In this document: piece after piece, positions 5,330 through 12,729 of the stretch | Layout of the letters: each line of letters opens with the position of its first letter | How positions within the stretch are numbered: the stretch's first letter is position 1 | Source of the DNA: an uncultured Lachnospiraceae bacterium | GTDB lineage: Bacteria > Bacillota_A > Clostridia > Lachnospirales > Lachnospiraceae | Length of the DNA: 12,729 nt | NCBI GenBank assembly: GCA_905200565.1 | Contig: CAJKKX010000021.1 | Location: 1-12,729 of the forward strand | Reading direction: 5' to 3' | Notes under the pieces: generated by a model | Databases searched by the model: none | Seen by the model: only the letters and a program-made list of their open reading frames with translations | What the model was told of the DNA's origin: nothing | Program-made: the position numbers and the translations under genes

Positions 5330-5452
5330 GTTTTGGGGAAAATTTTCCTAAAAATATTGATAATCCAAAAGTTTTGGGATAAAATATACTAAAAATATTA
5401 TTTAAATGAACGTTTTGGGATTACAGATATAAATGAATAGGAGGGATTGCCT
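5330..5452 (+). repeat. Tandem 41-bp repeats carrying a promoter and operator-like inverted repeat
   Basis: Copies begin with GTTTTGGG at 5330, 5371 and 5412, exactly 41 bp apart. Copies 1 and 2 match at about 28 of 41 positions, including CTAAAAATATT; copy 3 diverges after its first ten bases. A more degenerate relative (ATTGGGAAAATTCC) begins near 5292. Copy 1 contains the perfect palindrome GGAAAATTTTCC (5337-5348). A promoter spans the copy 1/copy 2 junction: TTGATA (5357-5362), 17 nt, TAAAAT (5380-5385). The inverted repeat CCAAAAGTTTTGG (5365-5377) lies inside that spacer. It looks like a repeated protein-binding site controlling the downstream ATPase gene; binding is inferred. Confidence 0.65.
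5439..5444 (+). promoter_or_regulatory. Shine-Dalgarno AGGAGG that decides a GTG start
   Basis: The perfect AGGAGG is followed by an in-frame TTG at 5447, only 2 nt away, and an in-frame GTG at 5453, 8 nt away. The spacing supports the GTG at 5453 as the real initiation codon. Confidence 0.75.
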
Positions 5453-6670
5453 GTGGCTGTCAGACGGATAGAGAGAAAAGAGTATCTTGAAAAACTCATT
5501 GCATTTCGGGATAAAAATATAATAAAAATCATCACGGGAGTTCGTCGGTGCGGAAAATCAACGCTGATGGAAATGTATCAGGATTATCTGAGAAAAAACG
5601 GCGTATCCGGCGAACAGATTATTGCGGTAAATCTGGAAGATTACGATTTCTATGATTTGCGGGAGCCCAGAGCGCTTCATGCATATATAAAGGAACGCCT
5701 TGTGCAGGATAAAATGACCTATGTTTTTCTTGACGAAGTACAGCACTGCGATGATTTTGCCGGGGTTCTGGACAGTCTGTTTATTAAAAAGAATGTTGAT
5801 TTATATGTGACAGGTTCAAATGCTTATATGCTGTCGTCGGAAATTGCCACACTGATTTCGGGACGGTATGTGGAAATCAGGATGCTGCCGCTATCATTTA
5901 AAGAATATGTGATGAGCACAGGAAATATGCAGGAGCTTGGGAAAAAGTATGTGACATATCTGGAAAACAGCTCTTTCCCATATACGCTGGAGCTTGCAGG
6001 GCGACCGAAAGAAATCCGGGATTACCTTGACGGAATTTATAACACCATTGTGGTAAAAGATATTGCAAAACGAAATAAGTTTCCGGATACGATGATGTTG
6101 GAAAGCATTGTACGGTTTCTGTTTGATAGTATTGGAAGTCCGCTTTCCACAAAGAAAATTGCGGACACTATGACGTCGAACGGCAGAAAAATTGATACAA
6201 AAACAGTAGAAAAATATCTGGATGCGTTAATGGAGAGCTACATTATTTATCAGGCAAAAAGATATAATATAAAAGGAAAGCAGTATTTAAAAACGCTGGA
6301 GAAGTATTATGTGGTGGATATTGGTCTGAGATATATGCTGCTGGGAGCCCGTTCTGCCGATGTGGGACATATTCTGGAAAATGTAGTTTATCTGGAGCTG
6401 ATACGCAGAGGGTATGATGTATATGTCGGCAGGCTGGATGAAATGGAAGTTGATTTTGTGGCAATGGATTATAAAAGAATCACATATTATCAGGTGGCGG
6501 CTTCTGTGCGAGATGAGCAGACATTGCGGCGGGAACTGGTGCCGTTGCAGAAAATCAATGACCATTATCCCAAATTTCTTCTTACGCTGGACGAGGACCC
6601 GGAGGGGGATTACGAAGGCATCCGGCGGGTAAATGCGCTGGAGTGGCTTATGGGAATGACGGAGATATAG
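5453..6670 (+). CDS. AAA_14/DUF4143-type ATP-binding protein
   Basis: A 405-residue cytoplasmic P-loop protein of the widespread AAA_14 plus DUF4143 type, whose role is not settled. From the GTG start, Walker A is GVRRCGKST (29-37) and Walker B is YVFLDEVQ (90-97, Asp94 and Glu95). A sensor-like Asn lies in YVTGSNAYML (Asn123), and ISGRYVEIRMLPLSFKEY is the usual family block. The C-terminal half (DUF4143) ends with a restriction-endonuclease-like pattern: a Glu in ILENVVYLEL, then EVDFV (332-336), then YYQVA. The middle holds a winged-helix-like segment (STKKIADTMTSNGRKIDTKTVEKYLDAL). The length is normal for the family. The gene stands alone between an operon terminator and a convergent operon, with its own repeat-rich promoter. 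Its base composition is clearly more AT-rich than the neighbouring operons, which suggests an accessory gene. Confidence 0.88.
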   Translation: MAVRRIERKEYLEKLIAFRDKNIIKIITGVRRCGKSTLMEMYQDYLRKNGVSGEQIIAVNLEDYDFYDLREPRALHAYIKERLVQDKMTYVFLDEVQHCDDFAGVLDSLFIKKNVDLYVTGSNAYMLSSEIATLISGRYVEIRMLPLSFKEYVMSTGNMQELGKKYVTYLENSSFPYTLELAGRPKEIRDYLDGIYNTIVVKDIAKRNKFPDTMMLESIVRFLFDSIGSPLSTKKIADTMTSNGRKIDTKTVEKYLDALMESYIIYQAKRYNIKGKQYLKTLEKYYVVDIGLRYMLLGARSADVGHILENVVYLELIRRGYDVYVGRLDEMEVDFVAMDYKRITYYQVAASVRDEQTLRRELVPLQKINDHYPKFLLTLDEDPEGDYEGIRRVNALEWLMGMTEI

Positions 6671-6754: not shown

Positions 6755-7504
6755 TTAATCATAATCGATAAATACTTTTTCGTTTCGCCGGAATACATCT
6801 GCATGGATATGGTAGAGCTCCTCCACCAGCGCGGAGCTGATAACGTCGTCCGGTCTGCCGTCGCACAGGTTCTGTCCGTTCTTGAGCACGTAGATACGGT
6901 CGCAGAATTTTGAAGCGAGACTTAAATCGTGCAGTGCGGTCAGCACTGTTTTTTTCGATGCTTTCAAAAGCGACAGCGTTTTTATCTGGCTGCCGATATC
7001 CAGATGGTTGGTCGGCTCGTCCAGAATAATCATTTCCGTTTCCTGCGCCAGCGCGCGGGCAATCAGTACCCGCTGCTTTTCGCCGCCGGACAGGCTCAGA
7101 AAGCTTCTCTCCAGAAAATCTTCCATTCCGACCATTTCCAGCGAATGGCAGACCACCTCGCGGTCGTGGTCGTTGGCGGCTTCCATCAGACGTTTTCTGG
7201 GATAGCGCCCCATCTGCACAACTTCTTCGACGGTGAAGTCAAAATTTGCCTCGCTTTCCTGCGAAACCACCGCAATGCGTTCCGCCATCTGCCGGTTTGA
7301 CATTTTCAGAAGACTTTTTCCGTCCAGAAGGATATCTCCCGAAACGGGCACAAGCATTTTGTAGATATTTTTCAGCAGCGTCGACTTTCCGCTTCCGTTG
7401 GGACCGATGACGCCCACGAATTCCTCCTGGTTTACGGTGAGGGAAATATCCCGGATAATCTCCACCTGCCGGGTGCGGTAGCTTACTTTTTCTGCACTGA
7501 GCAT
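6755..7504 (-). CDS. btuD: ABC transporter ATP-binding protein of the B12/iron-siderophore family (BtuD/FecE-like)
   Basis: This is the cytoplasmic ATPase of a type II importer. The 249 residues give the complete motif set: Walker A GPNGSGKS (34-41), Q-loop at VVSQES (Gln82), signature LSGGE (138-142), Walker B MIILDEP (158-164), D-loop NHLD, and switch His192 in LTALHDLSL. The length is normal for a FecE/BtuD subunit. AAAGGAGG precedes the ATG, and only 13 bp separate it from the permease stop, so it is the last gene of the operon. The family also serves ferric siderophores and haem. The cobalamin riboswitch at the head of the operon is the reason to prefer corrinoid transport, so the symbol rests on context rather than on this protein alone. 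Confidence 0.9.
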   Translation of the reverse strand: MLSAEKVSYRTRQVEIIRDISLTVNQEEFVGVIGPNGSGKSTLLKNIYKMLVPVSGDILLDGKSLLKMSNRQMAERIAVVSQESEANFDFTVEEVVQMGRYPRKRLMEAANDHDREVVCHSLEMVGMEDFLERSFLSLSGGEKQRVLIARALAQETEMIILDEPTNHLDIGSQIKTLSLLKASKKTVLTALHDLSLASKFCDRIYVLKNGQNLCDGRPDDVISSALVEELYHIHADVFRRNEKVFIDYD

Positions 7505-7517
7505 AGGTCCGCCTCCT

Positions 7518-8576
7518 TTAAGATTTCCCGAAGGAATATTTCCGTACCCGTATCATCCACAGGAAGACAGGTGCTCCGAGCATGGAAGTAATAATGCCGA
7601 TAGGAATTTCACTGGGCTGGTCGAGCATTCTGGCACCGACGTCCACCCAGACCAGGAAAATCGCTCCCAGCAGCGTGGAAATCGGAATCACCTTCCGGTG
7701 GTCCGCACCGACCATCGACCGCACGATATGCGGGATGACAAGTCCGACGAAACCGATGCTGCCGGTCACTGCCACTGCCGTTCCGGTCAGTGCCGCCGAC
7801 AGAAAGACGGTGATTTTGCGCACGAGATTAATATTGATTCCCAGCGTCACCGCGCTGCTCTCTCCCATAAGAAGCGCGTTCATGGAGGTGGAGAGAGCAT
7901 ACAGGCACAGAAAGCCCGGTATCAGTACCATAAACAGGGGAAGAAGCTCTTCCCACTGGGCACTGGCTACGCTGCCAAGCGTCCAGAACGTCACCTCCCG
8001 GATTTTGCTGTCATCCGGGGCCTTGTAAATGAGAAAGTTTGAAAATGCGGTAAACATGGCGGAAATAGCCGTTCCCACCAGAACCAGCTTGATGGGCGCC
8101 ACCTCTTTGCCGCTTTTCGCCATGTAATAAACAATTAAAATTGCCGCCATCGCGCCGATAAAAGCGCCGCCCTGGACAGAGTATGCGCCAAGGAAGGAGA
8201 GCGCTCCGGTGACAATGGCAAGTGAAGCGCCGAAGGTTGCGCCGGAGGATACGCCCAGCACATAGGGACTTGCCAGCGGATTTTTGGTAAATGACTGCAT
8301 GGCGACGCCCGAAAGCGTCAGCGCCGCGCCTACCATAGCGCCCATCAGCACCCGCGGCGTCCGCAGATGCCAGACGATGTTCTGCGTGCTCATGCGGATA
8401 TCTTCAACATCGCCTATGCCGGTCAGACGATGAAGAACCACCTGCCAGACCGTTTGGAAAGGGATGCTGACAGGTCCGATTCCGATGGCAAGAATCATCG
8501 ACAGAATCAATAGTATTAGCAAGAACACGCAGGTTATCCCCACGTGTTCCCTCATGAATTTACATAACCGTTTCAT
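7518..8576 (-). CDS. btuC: FecCD-family ABC permease, probably corrinoid (BtuC-like)
   Basis: This is the membrane channel of the B12-type importer. The 352 residues include multiple hydrophobic helices, beginning with one at about 13-33. Family landmarks are TPRVLMGAMVGAALTLSGVAMQ (about 73-94), NPLASPYVLGVSSGA (family consensus NPLADP..LG.SSGA), and GSIGFVGLVIPHIVR in the C-terminal half. The latter is the coupling region that contacts the ATPase. Length is typical. The start at 8576 lies 6 bp after the stop of the binding-protein gene. It has no close Shine-Dalgarno (a GGAG is about 18 nt upstream), so translation probably depends on coupling to the upstream gene. Substrate specificity is taken from the riboswitch, since iron-siderophore permeases look the same. 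Confidence 0.9.
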   Translation of the reverse strand: MKRLCKFMREHVGITCVFLLILLILSMILAIGIGPVSIPFQTVWQVVLHRLTGIGDVEDIRMSTQNIVWHLRTPRVLMGAMVGAALTLSGVAMQSFTKNPLASPYVLGVSSGATFGASLAIVTGALSFLGAYSVQGGAFIGAMAAILIVYYMAKSGKEVAPIKLVLVGTAISAMFTAFSNFLIYKAPDDSKIREVTFWTLGSVASAQWEELLPLFMVLIPGFLCLYALSTSMNALLMGESSAVTLGININLVRKITVFLSAALTGTAVAVTGSIGFVGLVIPHIVRSMVGADHRKVIPISTLLGAIFLVWVDVGARMLDQPSEIPIGIITSMLGAPVFLWMIRVRKYSFGKS

Positions 8577-8582
8577 ATGAAA

Positions 8583-9629
8583 TTATTCAAAACACTCCGG
8601 ATGGAATGCCTGGGCAAATTTTTCAATCGTATCGCCCACACGGGTGCTGGCGAATACTTCCGGAAGCGTGATAACCAGGAAGTTTTCGCTCTTGATGGCA
8701 GTTACATCGGAAAGAGCTTCGTTGTCCAGCAGGAACTGGATTTTCTCGTCTGCGGTCGTATCGCCGTAATCATTGATGACGATAACCTCCGGGTCTGCCT
8801 CTACAACGGCTTCCCAGCTTACGGTGTTCCAGGTTTTTTCAAGGTCCTCAAATACATTGACGCCGCCTGCGTGACGCATCAGCTTTGAGGTGAAGTTGTT
8901 TCCGGGCGTGTAGGCGCCGCCGTCCATTTCGCAGTCAAAGTTGAATACCCGCACTTCCTCTGTACCGGCAATTTTCTCTTCTACTGCCGCAATCTGGGCT
9001 TTCATACCGTCTACGATTTCATTTGCTTTGTCTTCAACCTGGAAAATTTTGCCGAGGTTGTAAAAATCCTGATAAACATCTTCCACGTCGCAGCCAAGCT
9101 TGTAGCCTTCGATGGAAGAAAGGGACATGATGCCGTACTCGCTTAAGGCATCATGTGTGGCAATCGCCGTGTCAGAATCGCTGAAAGCAGAGCTTCTTCC
9201 ATAGATGAAATCCGGTTCCAGGTCCAGAACTACCTCCAGGGACGGATAACCGTTGTTGTCGGAGATCACCGGCTTTGATTCGTATTCTTCGCGGTACTGC
9301 TCCGGAAGCTGGGCGTTGTTGTAGCAGGTTCCGATAATTTTGTCGCCGAGACCAAGCGCCATAAGCTGCTCTCCGGTGTTGGGATTGGTGCTGATTACAC
9401 GCTCCGGAACATGTGTAAAGGTGACCTCCTGGTCGTCCTTTGTCACCAGCGTGAAAGGAAATACGTCGCCATCTGCGGCTTCTGCGCCGTCAGCTTCTGT
9501 CTCCGCAGCTTCGGTTTCCACAGCGGCTTCCTGTGTTTCGGCTTCTGTTTCCTCAGCAAAAGCTGCTGCCGGGGAGAGCGCCATTACGCCAGCCATAATC
9601 AGTGTCAGTAATTGGTTCCTTTTTTTCAT
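8583..9629 (-). CDS. btuF: Secreted substrate-binding protein, probable corrinoid-binding (BtuF-like, Peripla_BP_2)
   Basis: This is the extracytoplasmic receptor of the B12-type importer. The 348 residues start with a signal peptide (MKKR, hydrophobic core, cleavage AFA|E after residue 25) that lacks a lipobox cysteine. About 29 residues of almost pure Glu, Ala, Thr and Asp (26-54) follow. They form an acidic low-complexity linker before the folded part. The domain then shows the type III binding-protein pattern: ERVISTNPNTGEQLMALGLGDKIIGT, LEPDFIYGRSS, and a C-terminal WEAVVEADPEVIVINDYG. ATG is preceded by GGAGG (9636-9640) with 6-nt spacing. It is the first gene after the cobalamin riboswitch, and the permease and ATPase follow at once. 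A ferric-siderophore or haem ligand cannot be excluded from the protein alone. Confidence 0.88.
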   Translation of the reverse strand: MKKRNQLLTLIMAGVMALSPAAAFAEETEAETQEAAVETEAAETEADGAEAADGDVFPFTLVTKDDQEVTFTHVPERVISTNPNTGEQLMALGLGDKIIGTCYNNAQLPEQYREEYESKPVISDNNGYPSLEVVLDLEPDFIYGRSSAFSDSDTAIATHDALSEYGIMSLSSIEGYKLGCDVEDVYQDFYNLGKIFQVEDKANEIVDGMKAQIAAVEEKIAGTEEVRVFNFDCEMDGGAYTPGNNFTSKLMRHAGGVNVFEDLEKTWNTVSWEAVVEADPEVIVINDYGDTTADEKIQFLLDNEALSDVTAIKSENFLVITLPEVFASTRVGDTIEKFAQAFHPECFE

Positions 9630-9740: not shown

Positions 9741-9884
9741 ATACCAGACAGACCGTTTTGTGCGCAGTAGTCCGGACCGGGCTTTGCAGACGACTGCATG
9801 AACCGGAAAAACGGAACTGCTGCGTGTGTCGTAGATACGAACAAATCTGCGAGGATGCTTTGCATGGAAGCTTCTTTCGCACAA

Positions 9885-10045
9885 GGCAGGCAGGTTTCCT
9901 GGCTCACAGATTTGCGCTTGTCCCTCCTTCTCACGGCATTCGCCGCAATGGATATCCGGGGAAGCTCCCTGCTCACAGTGACCGCATCGCTCAGGCTTTT
10001 CCTGATTCCCTCTCATTTCCGGATACGGAAATTCACCTGCTTTGT
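9885..10045 (-). promoter_or_regulatory. Cobalamin riboswitch (aptamer) controlling the BtuFCD-like operon
   Basis: Read on the - strand, the leader contains the hallmarks of the cobalamin aptamer. Near the 5' end is GCAGGTGAA (10040-10032). The core GGTCACTGTGA lies at 9983-9973. The B12 box AGCCAGGAAACCTGCC lies at 9904-9889. GCAGGT near the 5' end (10040-10035) pairs with ACCTGC of the B12 box to close stem P1. The aptamer lies downstream of a good promoter and some 250 nt before the binding-protein gene. Known biology: adenosylcobalamin or a related corrinoid binding represses downstream transport genes. A covariance-model search would set exact ends and the subclass. Confidence 0.9.
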
Positions 10046-10058
10046 TTCGACAAAATTC

Positions 10059-10110: not shown

Positions 10111-11085
10111 CTAATCCCAGATAATCAGATGCATGACTTTTTTGGCGGCTGTTACTATTCTTGAAGATAAATAACTTCTGGCAAGTTTTCTTTTGGAATA
10201 GCTCCATATGGGATTGCCCTGTGTCTGCTCAGACAGTAATTTAGTAAAAAACTGTTCCCAGCTGGCGTACTTTTCACTTTCGATATAATTTTCCGGTTTT
10301 TGGAGGATTGCAGATACATTTACATCCGGAATGGCATTTGTAGACAACAATAACCATTCAAAGGATTCCGGCGCGTATAGCGCTGCATTTTCTGCGCTGT
10401 CGAGATAGCGCATGATTTCGCGCATTTCTGAACCAAGCGCCGCCCCGTCTGCAATGACCAATATTTTTTGGGCGGTCGCTTCGGTATTCTTCAATACTTT
10501 CAGAATATTTGACTTTCCATTGGCAGATATGCATGAGATATTTTTCTGTCTGCACAACTCATTGAAAAATTCATATCCCGAATTTGAATCTTCTGTTATT
10601 ACCAGATGCGGATTTATGCCGTCTGTTTCCGATATTTCTCCATAAAGATTATATATTTCGTTGTACTTCTGCTTCGCTTCGTGAAATTTTCCGGATTCAC
10701 GGAAGCCGTATATTTCCCGGACACTGTAAGGAAGCATTGGCAGCTTTTCCCGTGTTGCGAGCACAAAGTAGTTATCTGATTTCAAAGCAAGCTCCGCGAA
10801 TTTTTTTGAAGCCAGAAAGCGGCTGCCTTCATCAATAAAAATGATGGAACCGGATATGCCTTCCAACTGCCGCTCCCAGTCTTCGCTGTCTAATGTCCGG
10901 CAGGGAAGGTCGCAGGAGACCACAATGCCGCTGTCAGTACCGTATCTTCTGTAGTCACGGATAAAATCAATCAATACGGTTTTACCGGAGCCGCTGTCTC
11001 CAGTGAGAATGGTGATATTTCTTTTAATGGTAAAATCGTATCGGATTTTCTTTGATTCAACAATGATTCTGTGAGCGCCCTTCAT
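10111..11085 (-). CDS. P-loop ATPase with TOPRIM-like C-terminal half, partner of DUF4869-like protein
   Basis: I do not recognise a named function. The 324 residues have no signal peptide or membrane segment. The N-terminal half is a P-loop ATPase: Walker A GDSGSGKT (29-36), Walker B SIIFIDEG (80-87, Asp85 and Glu86), and a sensor-like strand YFVLATRE (106-113). It lacks an ABC signature. The second half starts at about 160 with LVITEDSNSGYEFF (Glu165), then NGKSNI (189-194) and KILVIADGAALGSE (Asp213). This order of a Glu after a strand, a G-[KS]-N turn and an Asp-Gly turn after a strand resembles a TOPRIM domain as in OLD-family nucleases. That is inference from pattern only. The ATG is 6 bp past the stop of the small upstream gene, with AGGAG overlapping that gene's end (11099-11095), so the two are co-translated. 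It is more AT-rich than the flanking operons. An alternative is a non-nuclease regulatory ATPase. Confidence 0.75.
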   Translation of the reverse strand: MKGAHRIIVESKKIRYDFTIKRNITILTGDSGSGKTVLIDFIRDYRRYGTDSGIVVSCDLPCRTLDSEDWERQLEGISGSIIFIDEGSRFLASKKFAELALKSDNYFVLATREKLPMLPYSVREIYGFRESGKFHEAKQKYNEIYNLYGEISETDGINPHLVITEDSNSGYEFFNELCRQKNISCISANGKSNILKVLKNTEATAQKILVIADGAALGSEMREIMRYLDSAENAALYAPESFEWLLLSTNAIPDVNVSAILQKPENYIESEKYASWEQFFTKLLSEQTQGNPIWSYSKRKLARSYLSSRIVTAAKKVMHLIIWD

Positions 11086-11091
11086 AATATA

Positions 11092-11550
11092 TTACTCCTG
11101 TTTCATTTTGTTCAGATATTCAGAGGCAACGGGAATCAGCTCTTTCATTGAATGCACGATTTCTCCGCCGTTCCCGACAACGATGGTGAATTTTGTGTCT
11201 TTCCCAAAATCCATCAGATGCCGGAGATTGATGGTCAGGTTTTTGCTTTCCGCTATCTTCAGAATCCATTTTGCGCAGTTATCCCCGCACGTGGAGGCGT
11301 TGAAAATTTTATCCGGTTCATTCAGCATAAGAAGCAGCGTTTTTACACCGCCGGATAATCTTTCGGGAGGAATCTGTCCCAATACCGGGCTCTGGATACA
11401 TTCGCCGCTCAGAACATCTGATTTATCTATATCTTTAACCATCTGCTTTGCCAGAGCGGAATCGAACCATTCTGGCTCATAAGTATTTTTAAAATAGACA
11501 GCGGTATTGTAGACGCTGTTTTCCATATCTCCAAAAAAAATTGTCAGCAT
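11092..11550 (-). CDS. Small DUF4869-like protein, first gene of a two-gene cassette
   Basis: A 152-residue soluble protein of unknown function. From memory it matches the DUF4869 family of Clostridia (MLTIFFGDM at the start, VYFKNTYEPEWF, CGDNCAKWILKIAE, LRHLMDFG). That name should be confirmed by profile search. The sequence contains PERLSGGVKTLLLMLNEP (62-79), which looks like an ABC signature (LSGG, 65-68), but there is no Walker A anywhere in the protein. Cys88 and Cys92 form a CGDNC motif. The start at 11550 is chosen because GAGGTG (11561-11556) sits 5 nt before it; an in-frame ATG at 11619 overlaps the promoter and has no such site. It has its own promoter and is followed at once by the ATPase gene, so the pair probably acts together. 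Confidence 0.78.
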   Translation of the reverse strand: MLTIFFGDMENSVYNTAVYFKNTYEPEWFDSALAKQMVKDIDKSDVLSGECIQSPVLGQIPPERLSGGVKTLLLMLNEPDKIFNASTCGDNCAKWILKIAESKNLTINLRHLMDFGKDTKFTIVVGNGGEIVHSMKELIPVASEYLNKMKQE

Positions 11551-11619: not shown

Positions 11620-12729
11620 TTAAATCCGGTTCGGATACAGAAAGCGTTCCCGGATGAGGTATACGCCGCCAAGAAGCACGGAGGTGTCCTGCAGGGTGGA
11701 GGGCACCAGGCGGCAGTAGCCCTTCATGTTGTTGTGGAGCTGAGCCGCGATGTCGTCGCACAGTCCGGCGTGGCACATGGTGAGCGAGCTGTTGAGCACG
11801 ATGATGTCCGGATTGAAGGTGTTCAGCAGATTGTTGATGCCGACAGACATATATTTGATAAACTGCTGCATGGCGCGCACAGCGGCAGGGTCGCCCTGGC
11901 GGTAAAGTCTGCCGTAGACCTCGGCGTTTACCGGATAGCCCTTTTGGGCGGAGAGCTCCGCAAACAGTGCGCGCTCGGAGGCATACTGCTCCAGACAGCC
12001 GTGATTGCCGCAGGGACAGGGACGTCCGTCCACTTCGATAATAGTATGACCAAATTCGCCGGCGTAGCCGTTTTTGCCTTTGACGAGCTGGTTTTTCATG
12101 ATGATGCCGGCGCCGATACCGGAGTGGACGCTGATGTAGAGCATTTCATTGGTATCGTGGCAGTGCGCCCATTCGCCCAGCGCGGAAAGATTCGCCTCGT
12201 TTTCCATCACGACGGGTACGCCGTAGATATCGCCGAGGCGGGACACAAAATCGATATCTCCGAAAGAAGAATACGGAAGAAAAATGATTTTGTTATGATG
12301 GACAACGCCATGAATGCCGAGGGCGATGCCGAGAAGCCCGTAGCGCGTCTTCGGGAGAGCGTTTATCGCCTGGTCAATCCGTTCCTTTAAAAGAGGAAGC
12401 AGAAATTCCGTATTCTTCGGCGTGGGAAACTGTGTCAGACGGCAGTTGCCGCCCAGCAGGTTTGCCGTCATCAGGGTGATATTTTCTGTGGCAAGGTCGA
12501 TAGCAACGACGTAGCCGCAGTCTTTGTTTAGCTGAAGAAAAATCGGCTTTCTGCCTTTTCTGCCCTCCGGCGCGGTGTCGCTGCTTTCCGCCTCGAAAAT
12601 GATGCCGCGGTCGAGAAGCACCTGTACGATGGCGGAGACCGTCGCCTTTGTCAGACCAAGCTCGGAGGCAATGGAAGCACGGGAAATAGCGCCATGCGTA
12701 ATGATGGTGCGGAGGACCGACTGTGTGTT
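11620..12729 (-). CDS. ROK-family transcriptional regulator (XylR/NagC type), 5' end off window
   Basis: This is probably a sugar-responsive repressor. The reading frame is open to the right edge of the window, so the true start is missing; 369 codons are present. The first about 37 visible residues form a helix-turn-helix (ISRASIASELGLTKATVSAI), so the in-frame GTG at 12621 is internal, not the start. The ROK domain follows. It lacks the DxGxT phosphate-binding motif of ROK kinases (here IDLATENI). It has NEAN where kinases carry NDAN, so the catalytic Asp is Glu. It retains the zinc-binding segment CPCGNHGCLE (about 238-247) with GEFGHTIIEVDG before it. These features mark a regulator rather than a glucokinase. 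The targets, perhaps a sugar operon to the right, cannot be seen. Confidence 0.9.
   Translation of the reverse strand, partial: NTQSVLRTIITHGAISRASIASELGLTKATVSAIVQVLLDRGIIFEAESSDTAPEGRKGRKPIFLQLNKDCGYVVAIDLATENITLMTANLLGGNCRLTQFPTPKNTEFLLPLLKERIDQAINALPKTRYGLLGIALGIHGVVHHNKIIFLPYSSFGDIDFVSRLGDIYGVPVVMENEANLSALGEWAHCHDTNEMLYISVHSGIGAGIIMKNQLVKGKNGYAGEFGHTIIEVDGRPCPCGNHGCLEQYASERALFAELSAQKGYPVNAEVYGRLYRQGDPAAVRAMQQFIKYMSVGINNLLNTFNPDIIVLNSSLTMCHAGLCDDIAAQLHNNMKGYCRLVPSTLQDTSVLLGGVYLIRERFLYPNRI

Follow-up and report, generated by a model that had tools for sequence, protein, structure and literature searches.

The closest described systems to the locus analysed here combine an ATP-binding cassette (ABC) ATPase with a TOPRIM domain. 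In OLD proteins of classes 1 and 2 the two lie on a single chain, and in PARIS they are encoded separately (PMC10568477). The PARIS ATPase, AriA, keeps AriB, a TOPRIM nuclease, in an inactive state that ends when a phage protein binds (PMC12409363). ABC ATPases work as dimers, the signature motif of one subunit acting in trans on ATP bound to its partner, and the metal ligands of OLD proteins include a metal-B motif, S-x-E (PMC7049728). A 2026 survey of BREX reports OLD-ABC modules with various nucleases, and DUF4869 is absent from its main text (PMC12839542). Here, we analysed a 12,729-nucleotide stretch of contig CAJKKX010000021.1 (the window) from an uncultured Lachnospiraceae bacterium, which carries a cassette of two genes, one for a DUF4869 protein and one for a 324-amino-acid (aa) protein with an ATPase half and a TOPRIM-like half. 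We propose, with a probability of roughly 0.58, that this cassette is a minimal relative of OLD and PARIS, with its ABC ATPase spread over two polypeptides and a TOPRIM effector held in check. Two-gene cassettes with ATPase and TOPRIM fused on one chain, as in the window, are called form A below, and residue conservation is counted over 53 unique intact form-A sequences, the window's own among them.

The N-terminal half of the 324-aa protein is predicted to fold as an ABC-type core bearing the Walker A and Walker B motifs (Table 1), both already picked out in a preliminary description of the window made from the sequence alone. KaiC is in the top rows of a Foldseek search with the ATPase model, and a PDB sequence search with the ATPase profile returns chiefly P-loop matches; among 7997 candidates scored, 4333 are ATPase homologues at E <= 0.001. 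A pattern search revealed no ABC signature between Walker A and Walker B of this chain. The same type of search found Walker A in 53/53 form-A ATPases and 30/31 small ATPases. Signature-type matches are absent from all 31 small ATPases and present in six of the 53 form-A ATPases, all six at residues 186-196, within the TOPRIM half. The DUF4869 side is the reverse: 124 of 129 unique DUF4869 open reading frames (ORFs) have an LSxGxK signature and a single one has Walker A, this one being a natural fusion of an ATPase half with DUF4869 (L147, 309 aa). Among the departures from this pattern, L175 and L176, DUF4869 genes for which no ATPase was detected, have LSGS, and L237, beside an intact ATPase, has LAGG. 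This distribution indicates that the ABC motifs are complementary between the two proteins; once these are counted as a pair, Walker A, Walker B and signature are all represented. Distance matrices of 53 pairs correlate at 0.82 between ATPase half and DUF4869, 0.79 between TOPRIM half and DUF4869, and 0.84 between the two halves of the ATPase chain, which shows joint inheritance and not contact.

The DUF4869 protein matches Pfam PF16163 with 192.9 bits (cut-off 28.9), and 7982 of the 7997 candidates scored are homologues at E <= 0.001. Since Pfam yields DUF4869 alone and NCBIfam nothing, no DNA-binding domain was found in it. The best 50 of 434 PDB matches (E <= 10) of its predicted model are all ABC-type ATPases by entry title, with AriA at rank 3 (E 0.026). 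Its signature-type motif LSGGVK aligns with the LSGG of ABC ATPases; S66 and G68 are invariant in 37 DUF4869 sequences, and K70 nearly so. The partner was previously given as uncharacterised, which no longer holds in that simple form: judged from motif and model, DUF4869 resembles the signature-bearing half of an ABC ATPase. Several sequence comparisons were negative. Masking LSGGVK abolishes the sequence signal to ABC ATPases, a DUF4869 profile from the split-gene form does no better against them than TOPRIM profiles do, and the DUF4869 profile scores at shuffle level (20/60) against OLD-type proteins. The proposed kinship with ABC ATPases thus rests on motif and predicted model, without significant whole-domain sequence similarity. 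A PDB sequence search with DUF4869 returned nothing useful, and a search of a viral Foldseek library gave mixed matches, mostly helicases and polyproteins, which offer no guide.

That the sequence link is mostly motif would suit a plain toxin-antitoxin pair, in which the ATPase-TOPRIM protein is the toxin, DUF4869 an unrelated small inhibitor and the LSGG-like motif a coincidence, with no composite ATP site. We consider this unlikely, if still deserving of serious weight. The ABC-type ATPases that make up all 50 listed structural matches argue against it, as do the placement of the motif at a helix start, its retention in 124/129 and its complementarity to what the ATPase lacks; moreover, ABC ATPases dimerize with the signature in trans (PMC7049728).

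Downstream of more distant DUF4869 genes lies an ATPase that lacks TOPRIM and is about 130-165 aa long; a third gene, often beside such a pair, encodes a stand-alone TOPRIM of about 220-260 aa (outliers 343 and 738 aa). The gene order is either TOPRIM-DUF4869-ATPase (for example L051, L053 and L159) or DUF4869-ATPase-TOPRIM (L150, L151 and L152). Because these relatives encode TOPRIM as a separate homologous gene, form A has the appearance of an ATPase-TOPRIM fusion. We tallied 39 three-gene cassettes in 38 loci, chosen by us among the weaker search rows and not comprising all such rows. An intact stand-alone TOPRIM (220 aa or more, covering the profile from 2 to at least 215) is present in 20/39, and both partners accompany it in 20/20. 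Conversely, both partners are kept with TOPRIM truncated or missing in 6/39 (L052, L148, L149, L161, the first cassette of L214, and L217). Other cassettes have a damaged ATPase and no TOPRIM (L160), damage to everything but DUF4869 (L230), no DUF4869 and a TOPRIM with an in-frame stop (L210), or only the ATPase (L218 and L223); one runs into a contig edge (L211), and seven divergent cassettes (L156, L157, L222, L226, L227, L228 and L231) give no match to the TOPRIM profile. In two of these (L156 7567-7884 and L157 7584-8042), an ORF of 105-152 aa, bearing a short FED motif close to its start, follows the divergent DUF4869-ATPase pair and, by eye, is perhaps a reduced TOPRIM. In L229 (797-3871), a TOPRIM-DUF4869-ATPase cassette opens in frame within the end of what by eye resembles an ABC exporter gene, giving the 738-aa ORF; a cassette insertion into an exporter-like gene is possible.

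In the fused protein, residues 161-248 have TOPRIM topology, with four beta-alpha units. The C-terminal half aligns with the profile of the stand-alone TOPRIMs at an HHalign probability of 96.1 (E 2.9e-9, 140 columns), so the TOPRIM likeness first read from the letters, placed at residues 155-260, is borne out by topology and by homologous genes. Comparisons with characterized families are fainter. RNase M5 Toprim appears at rank 38 (E 0.16) in a structure search with the ATPase-TOPRIM model; PF20469 (OLD-like_TOPRIM) scores 15.5 bits against the window ATPase, under its cut-off of 23.2; HHalign of the C-half against ten ABC-type proteins fetched by TOPRIM models gives the right register, yet 2/60 shuffles do equally well; the stand-alone TOPRIM profile is at shuffle level (25/60) against OLD-type proteins; and PDB sequence searches with the stand-alone TOPRIM or the C-half gave nothing useful. 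E165, NGKSNI (189-194) and IADG (211-214) occur in that order along the C-half, as the preliminary description had it, and E165 and D213 are kept in 53/53. By pattern, with no superposition, E165, D213, S241 and E243 match four of OLD's six metal ligands. Asp-x-Asp, by contrast, has Ala at its second position in 50 sequences, Ser in 2, Val in 1 and Asp in 0/53; the stand-alone TOPRIMs have DxxxD in its stead, with D61 and D65 invariant in 10.

The earlier doubt about catalysis therefore stands, the second Asp being lost throughout, though the other ligands are kept. With this loss, and with DxxxD in the stand-alone proteins, the module might instead be a switch without nuclease activity, an ATP-dependent sensor or a DNA- or RNA-binding regulator carrying a catalytically dead TOPRIM. 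We find this rather improbable: E165, D213 and E243 are each retained in 53/53 and S241 in 52/53, and in the three-gene relatives TOPRIM is lost or truncated beside intact partners in six cassettes, while an intact TOPRIM never occurs without both partners, which suggests a costly activity.

The same polarity is found in form A. We classified 87 form-A type loci from 397 Lachnospiraceae genomes, many of them draft assemblies in which some broken genes may be sequencing errors. An ATPase was called intact if a single stop-free frame of at least 300 aa covered profile positions 10 to 300, and a DUF4869 gene if at least 130 stop-free aa covered profile positions 13 to 115; absent denotes no row at the search threshold. 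About 35 weaker small-ATPase rows, mostly of the split-gene form, and PF16163 rows below G805:C10:19270 were left out of the count. Both genes are intact in 42/87 loci; the ATPase is broken beside an intact DUF4869 in 24/87, a tally that includes the natural fusion G883:C3; the ATPase is undetected beside an intact DUF4869 in 9/87, of which one lies at a contig edge and carries no information (G091:C189:3-350; the other G091 locus has a 32-residue ATPase remnant); and fragments alone are found in 12/87. An intact ATPase without an intact DUF4869 was seen in 0/87. DUF4869 is thus kept with a broken or undetected ATPase-TOPRIM 33 times and the reverse occurs 0 times, a split with a probability of 3e-6 if lesions fell by gene length only (2.1 to 1) and the loci are taken as independent. 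This one-way decay is the pattern of a harmful part retained only with its control, the polarity of a toxin and its antidote or of a guarded effector. The first lesion was taken to lie past residue 147 in 18 of the 24 broken-ATPase loci (p 0.06) and within residues 148-200 in 15/24 (p 5e-7), the latter bin having been picked post hoc in a region of variable linker where profile alignments tend to stop; one test used n=23 and the other n=24, with G069. We take this clustering as no more than a hint.

In the nearest genome (L047), the ATPase-TOPRIM copy lacks residues 149-292, that is, TOPRIM, and a transposase is inserted in DUF4869. This stretch of L047 (8665-11555) holds a 599-aa DDE transposase ORF within the DUF4869 gene and keeps one full DUF4869 copy, with a 201-bp target duplication corresponding to window 11084-11284 on both sides. 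Long target duplications are known for IS1634/IS1549-type elements.

The 42 intact pairs lie on the same strand in 42/42, with DUF4869 first in 40 and the ATPase first in 2. The putative toxic partner is never found without the other, neither in form A (42/42) nor in the three-gene form (20/20). One-way decay and close gene spacing are what a plain toxin-antitoxin pair would also produce; the 9/87 loci with DUF4869 and no detected ATPase (one at a contig edge) and a cassette-like scatter among unrelated genes fit it too. Type II toxin-antitoxin modules resemble the cassette in their two small overlapping or abutting genes, their one-way decay and a small partner sometimes found alone; they differ in that the proposed antidote is here itself an ABC-like half, with no DNA-binding domain found.

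Under the split-ATPase reading, the 324-aa protein would supply the ATP-binding half with its fused TOPRIM effector, and DUF4869 the signature half. The two would form an asymmetric ABC heterodimer with a single composite ATP site, the DUF4869 signature closing over the ATP of the Walker subunit; as Walker motifs and signature are on different chains, a full ATP site could exist only in the heterodimer, and only one. By analogy with AriA and AriB, the DUF4869-ATPase clamp would keep TOPRIM inactive. Its release would follow a trigger (most likely infection by a phage) or the loss of DUF4869; the freed TOPRIM would then cleave nucleic acid, probably, like AriB, RNA or tRNA, and the cell would arrest; we infer a role in defence from this likeness.

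The likeness to PARIS consists in an ABC-type ATPase with a TOPRIM effector, fused or on separate genes, and in the restraint that AriA exerts, the same role as that suggested for DUF4869-ATPase. AriA differs in being a complete ABC ATPase on one chain, whereas the Walker site and the signature here belong to two. Furthermore, the PADLOC AriA model gives only 18.1 bits over residues 24-85, with no AriA or AriB match above a weak P-loop level; the window ATPase and three stand-alone TOPRIMs have no match to PF14491 (DUF4435) at E <= 1; and Asp-x-Asp is incomplete here. Class 1 OLD proteins (P2 Old, TsOLD) likewise have an N-terminal ABC ATPase fused to a C-terminal TOPRIM and share the E, first D and S-x-E metal ligands (PMC7049728). 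The window protein differs from them in that its 324 aa leave little room for a dimerization insert, no signature lies in the chain (outside residues 186-196 in the 53 form-A proteins, and none in the 31 small ATPases), a second protein stands beside it in 42/42 intact cases, the E+4 acid is not kept, nor is one Asp of Asp-x-Asp, and there is no significant match to OLD models, as the PF20469 score illustrates. Gabija, too, pairs an ABC-TOPRIM protein with a second gene; here that gene is DUF4869 and not the UvrD-type helicase GajB. No helicase was found among the window ORFs scanned, and the listed GajB models match 2/71 form-A neighbour proteins. Two close cassette relatives (L003 170-5413 and L006 594-5481) lie directly downstream of a DEAD/MrfA-type and UvrD-type helicase gene pair, whose genes share 83% and 77% identity across L003 and L006; the pair was not seen in the window. 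A GajA-like architecture was rejected on the absence of an in-chain signature, the little room for an insert and the lack of a fixed helicase partner. Hence, of the comparison with OLD-type proteins such as GajA that had been drawn for this locus, the OLD-like kind of ATPase plus TOPRIM survives and the GajA-like architecture does not. The cassette is best filed as a variant of the ABC-TOPRIM immune kind, not as a member of OLD, PARIS or Gabija.

Whether it amounts to a new OLD/PARIS-type architecture, a naturally split ABC ATPase acting as a two-key lock on a TOPRIM effector that is fused or encoded by a third gene on either side, we regard as an even bet. A full-text search of the open-licence literature found no paper on DUF4869; the phrase 'split ABC ATPase' is absent from the open-licence literature searched, where subscription papers mostly fall outside and an earlier mention elsewhere is possible; and no open-licence paper was found that combines ABC ATPase, Walker A, signature motif and separate polypeptide. 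If the proposal is true, separate genes can encode the two motifs that define an ABC ATP site, and OLD/PARIS-type modules can be reduced to about 1.4 kb. It would also assign a function that can be tested to a Pfam domain of unknown function present in about a fifth of sampled genomes of Lachnospiraceae, a gut-bacterial family.

The ATPase profile (E <= 0.001) matches in 31 and PF16163 in 39 of 200 Lachnospiraceae genomes; in a larger sample of the family at E <= 1e-6 the figures are 74/397, weak and small relatives counted, and 73/397. Beyond the family, PF16163 matches in 4/291 genomes of a class sample, three of them above cut-off and all three Lachnospiraceae, and the ATPase profile in 53/295 genomes of an order-wide sample (E <= 0.001), mostly weakly and over the P-loop. 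One genome of a family other than Lachnospiraceae (G752) has a full-length ATPase-profile match (E 1.3e-118). Named cassette relatives are Lachnospiraceae (Dorea, Blautia, Schaedlerella and others). The neighbours of form A are mostly metabolic (a cobalamin-type ABC operon, a ROK gene, glycerate kinase, dTDP-sugar genes), which could speak for a housekeeping or metabolic accessory pair with no role in conflict. We judge such a pair very improbable given the patchy distribution in the 397 genomes, the thirteen PF16163 matches in one genome and the frequent decay. The genes are thus neither rarely adjacent nor universal, and the co-occurring, patchy pair anticipated from the window is what the survey found. 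The thirteen matches in that genome (G112) are of several forms.

The differing insertion sites suggest transfer as a small cassette. A genome of the same genus (G122) was considered as an empty site and set aside, its ROK homologue being 65% identical but non-syntenic. The pair is present in three PLSDB records, from Ruminococcus albus, Agathobacter rectalis and Collinsella, labelled DUF4869 and hypothetical protein. Two of these look chromosomal (L095 with proS and tilS, L096 with aro genes) and were not accepted as plasmids; R. albus pRUMAL02 is the only record taken as plasmid carriage. Phage carriage was not adopted from five 'Bacteriophage sp.' records with ATPase matches, the two inspected being UNVERIFIED and unannotated, nor from an IMG/VR locus (L091) with a phage minor capsid gene nearby and an interrupted ATPase frame. 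A 72-kb IMG/VR viral contig (L092 5989-6454) carries DUF4869 without ATPase, near RtcB and Thg1 genes; an in-frame TAG stands where the family mostly has Trp. A solo DUF4869 on a phage would fit counter-defence, though this gene is interrupted.

Association with defence islands, proposed earlier as a check, is not borne out for form A: 14 loci showed no recurrent defence neighbour (71 of 77 listed neighbour proteins scanned, no background measured). Of the 88 PADLOC families, each of the first 25 is matched by <=3 of these proteins, and most of the 25 are generic helicase or ATPase models; we dropped the association, claiming no enrichment. The two GajB-model matches belong to this set; a UvrD-type gene lies upstream in L006, with a homologue in L003. 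In the split-gene form (89 of 113 listed proteins scanned), one DUF4869-ATPase-TOPRIM trio (L150 1793-8517) lies directly 3' of a PglX-like DNA methylase and a PglZ gene, and another three-gene cassette (L151) is beside ThsB; as single loci without a measured background, these are suggestive only.

Within the window, the coordinates, the minus strand and the 6-bp spacing, with DUF4869 upstream, agree with the preliminary description, and an AGGAG Shine-Dalgarno sequence for the ATPase gene does overlap the end of the DUF4869 gene (Table 1). The single promoter also claimed for the pair did not emerge from a promoter scan, which gave 4 promoter-like sites where shuffled sequences gave 3.4 +/- 1.8; the spacing by itself makes co-transcription plausible.

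Table 1. Features of the cassette and its surroundings in the window
Feature	Position	Strand	Remarks
DUF4869 gene	11092..11550	-	152 aa from internal ATG; mechanical ORF longer; product is the proposed signature-bearing half of a split ABC ATPase, putative regulatory subunit or antidote
LSGGVK, ABC signature-type motif	11341..11358	-	residues 65-70; N-terminus of predicted helix 67-77
AGGAG Shine-Dalgarno of ATPase gene	11095..11099	-	within last two sense codons of DUF4869 gene, read directly
ATPase-TOPRIM gene	10111..11085	-	324 aa
Walker A, GDSGSGKT	10978..11001	-	residues 29-36; G29, G34, K35 kept in 53/53
Walker B, IIFIDE	10828..10845	-	residues 81-86; D85 50/53 (E in 3), E86 51/53 (D in 2)
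TOPRIM-like domain	10342..10605	-	residues 161-248; HHalign to stand-alone TOPRIM genes
S-F-E	10357..10365	-	residues 241-243; pattern match to OLD metal-B motif S-x-E; S 52/53, F and E 53/53
Cobalamin riboswitch	9872-10055	-	RF00174, 84.8 bits; between cassette and ABC operon
ABC transporter, substrate-binding protein (SBP)	8583-9629		flanking operon
ABC transporter, FecCD permease	7518-8576		flanking operon
ABC transporter, ATPase	6755-7504		flanking operon
ROK-family gene	11620-12621		flanking

Because the cobalamin riboswitch precedes it, the flanking ABC operon (6755-9629) probably serves cobalamin uptake and not iron uptake. Elsewhere in the window, an AAA_14/DUF4143 ATPase gene with a TTG start (5447-6670) matches the PADLOC candidate PDC-S01 (E 2e-159).
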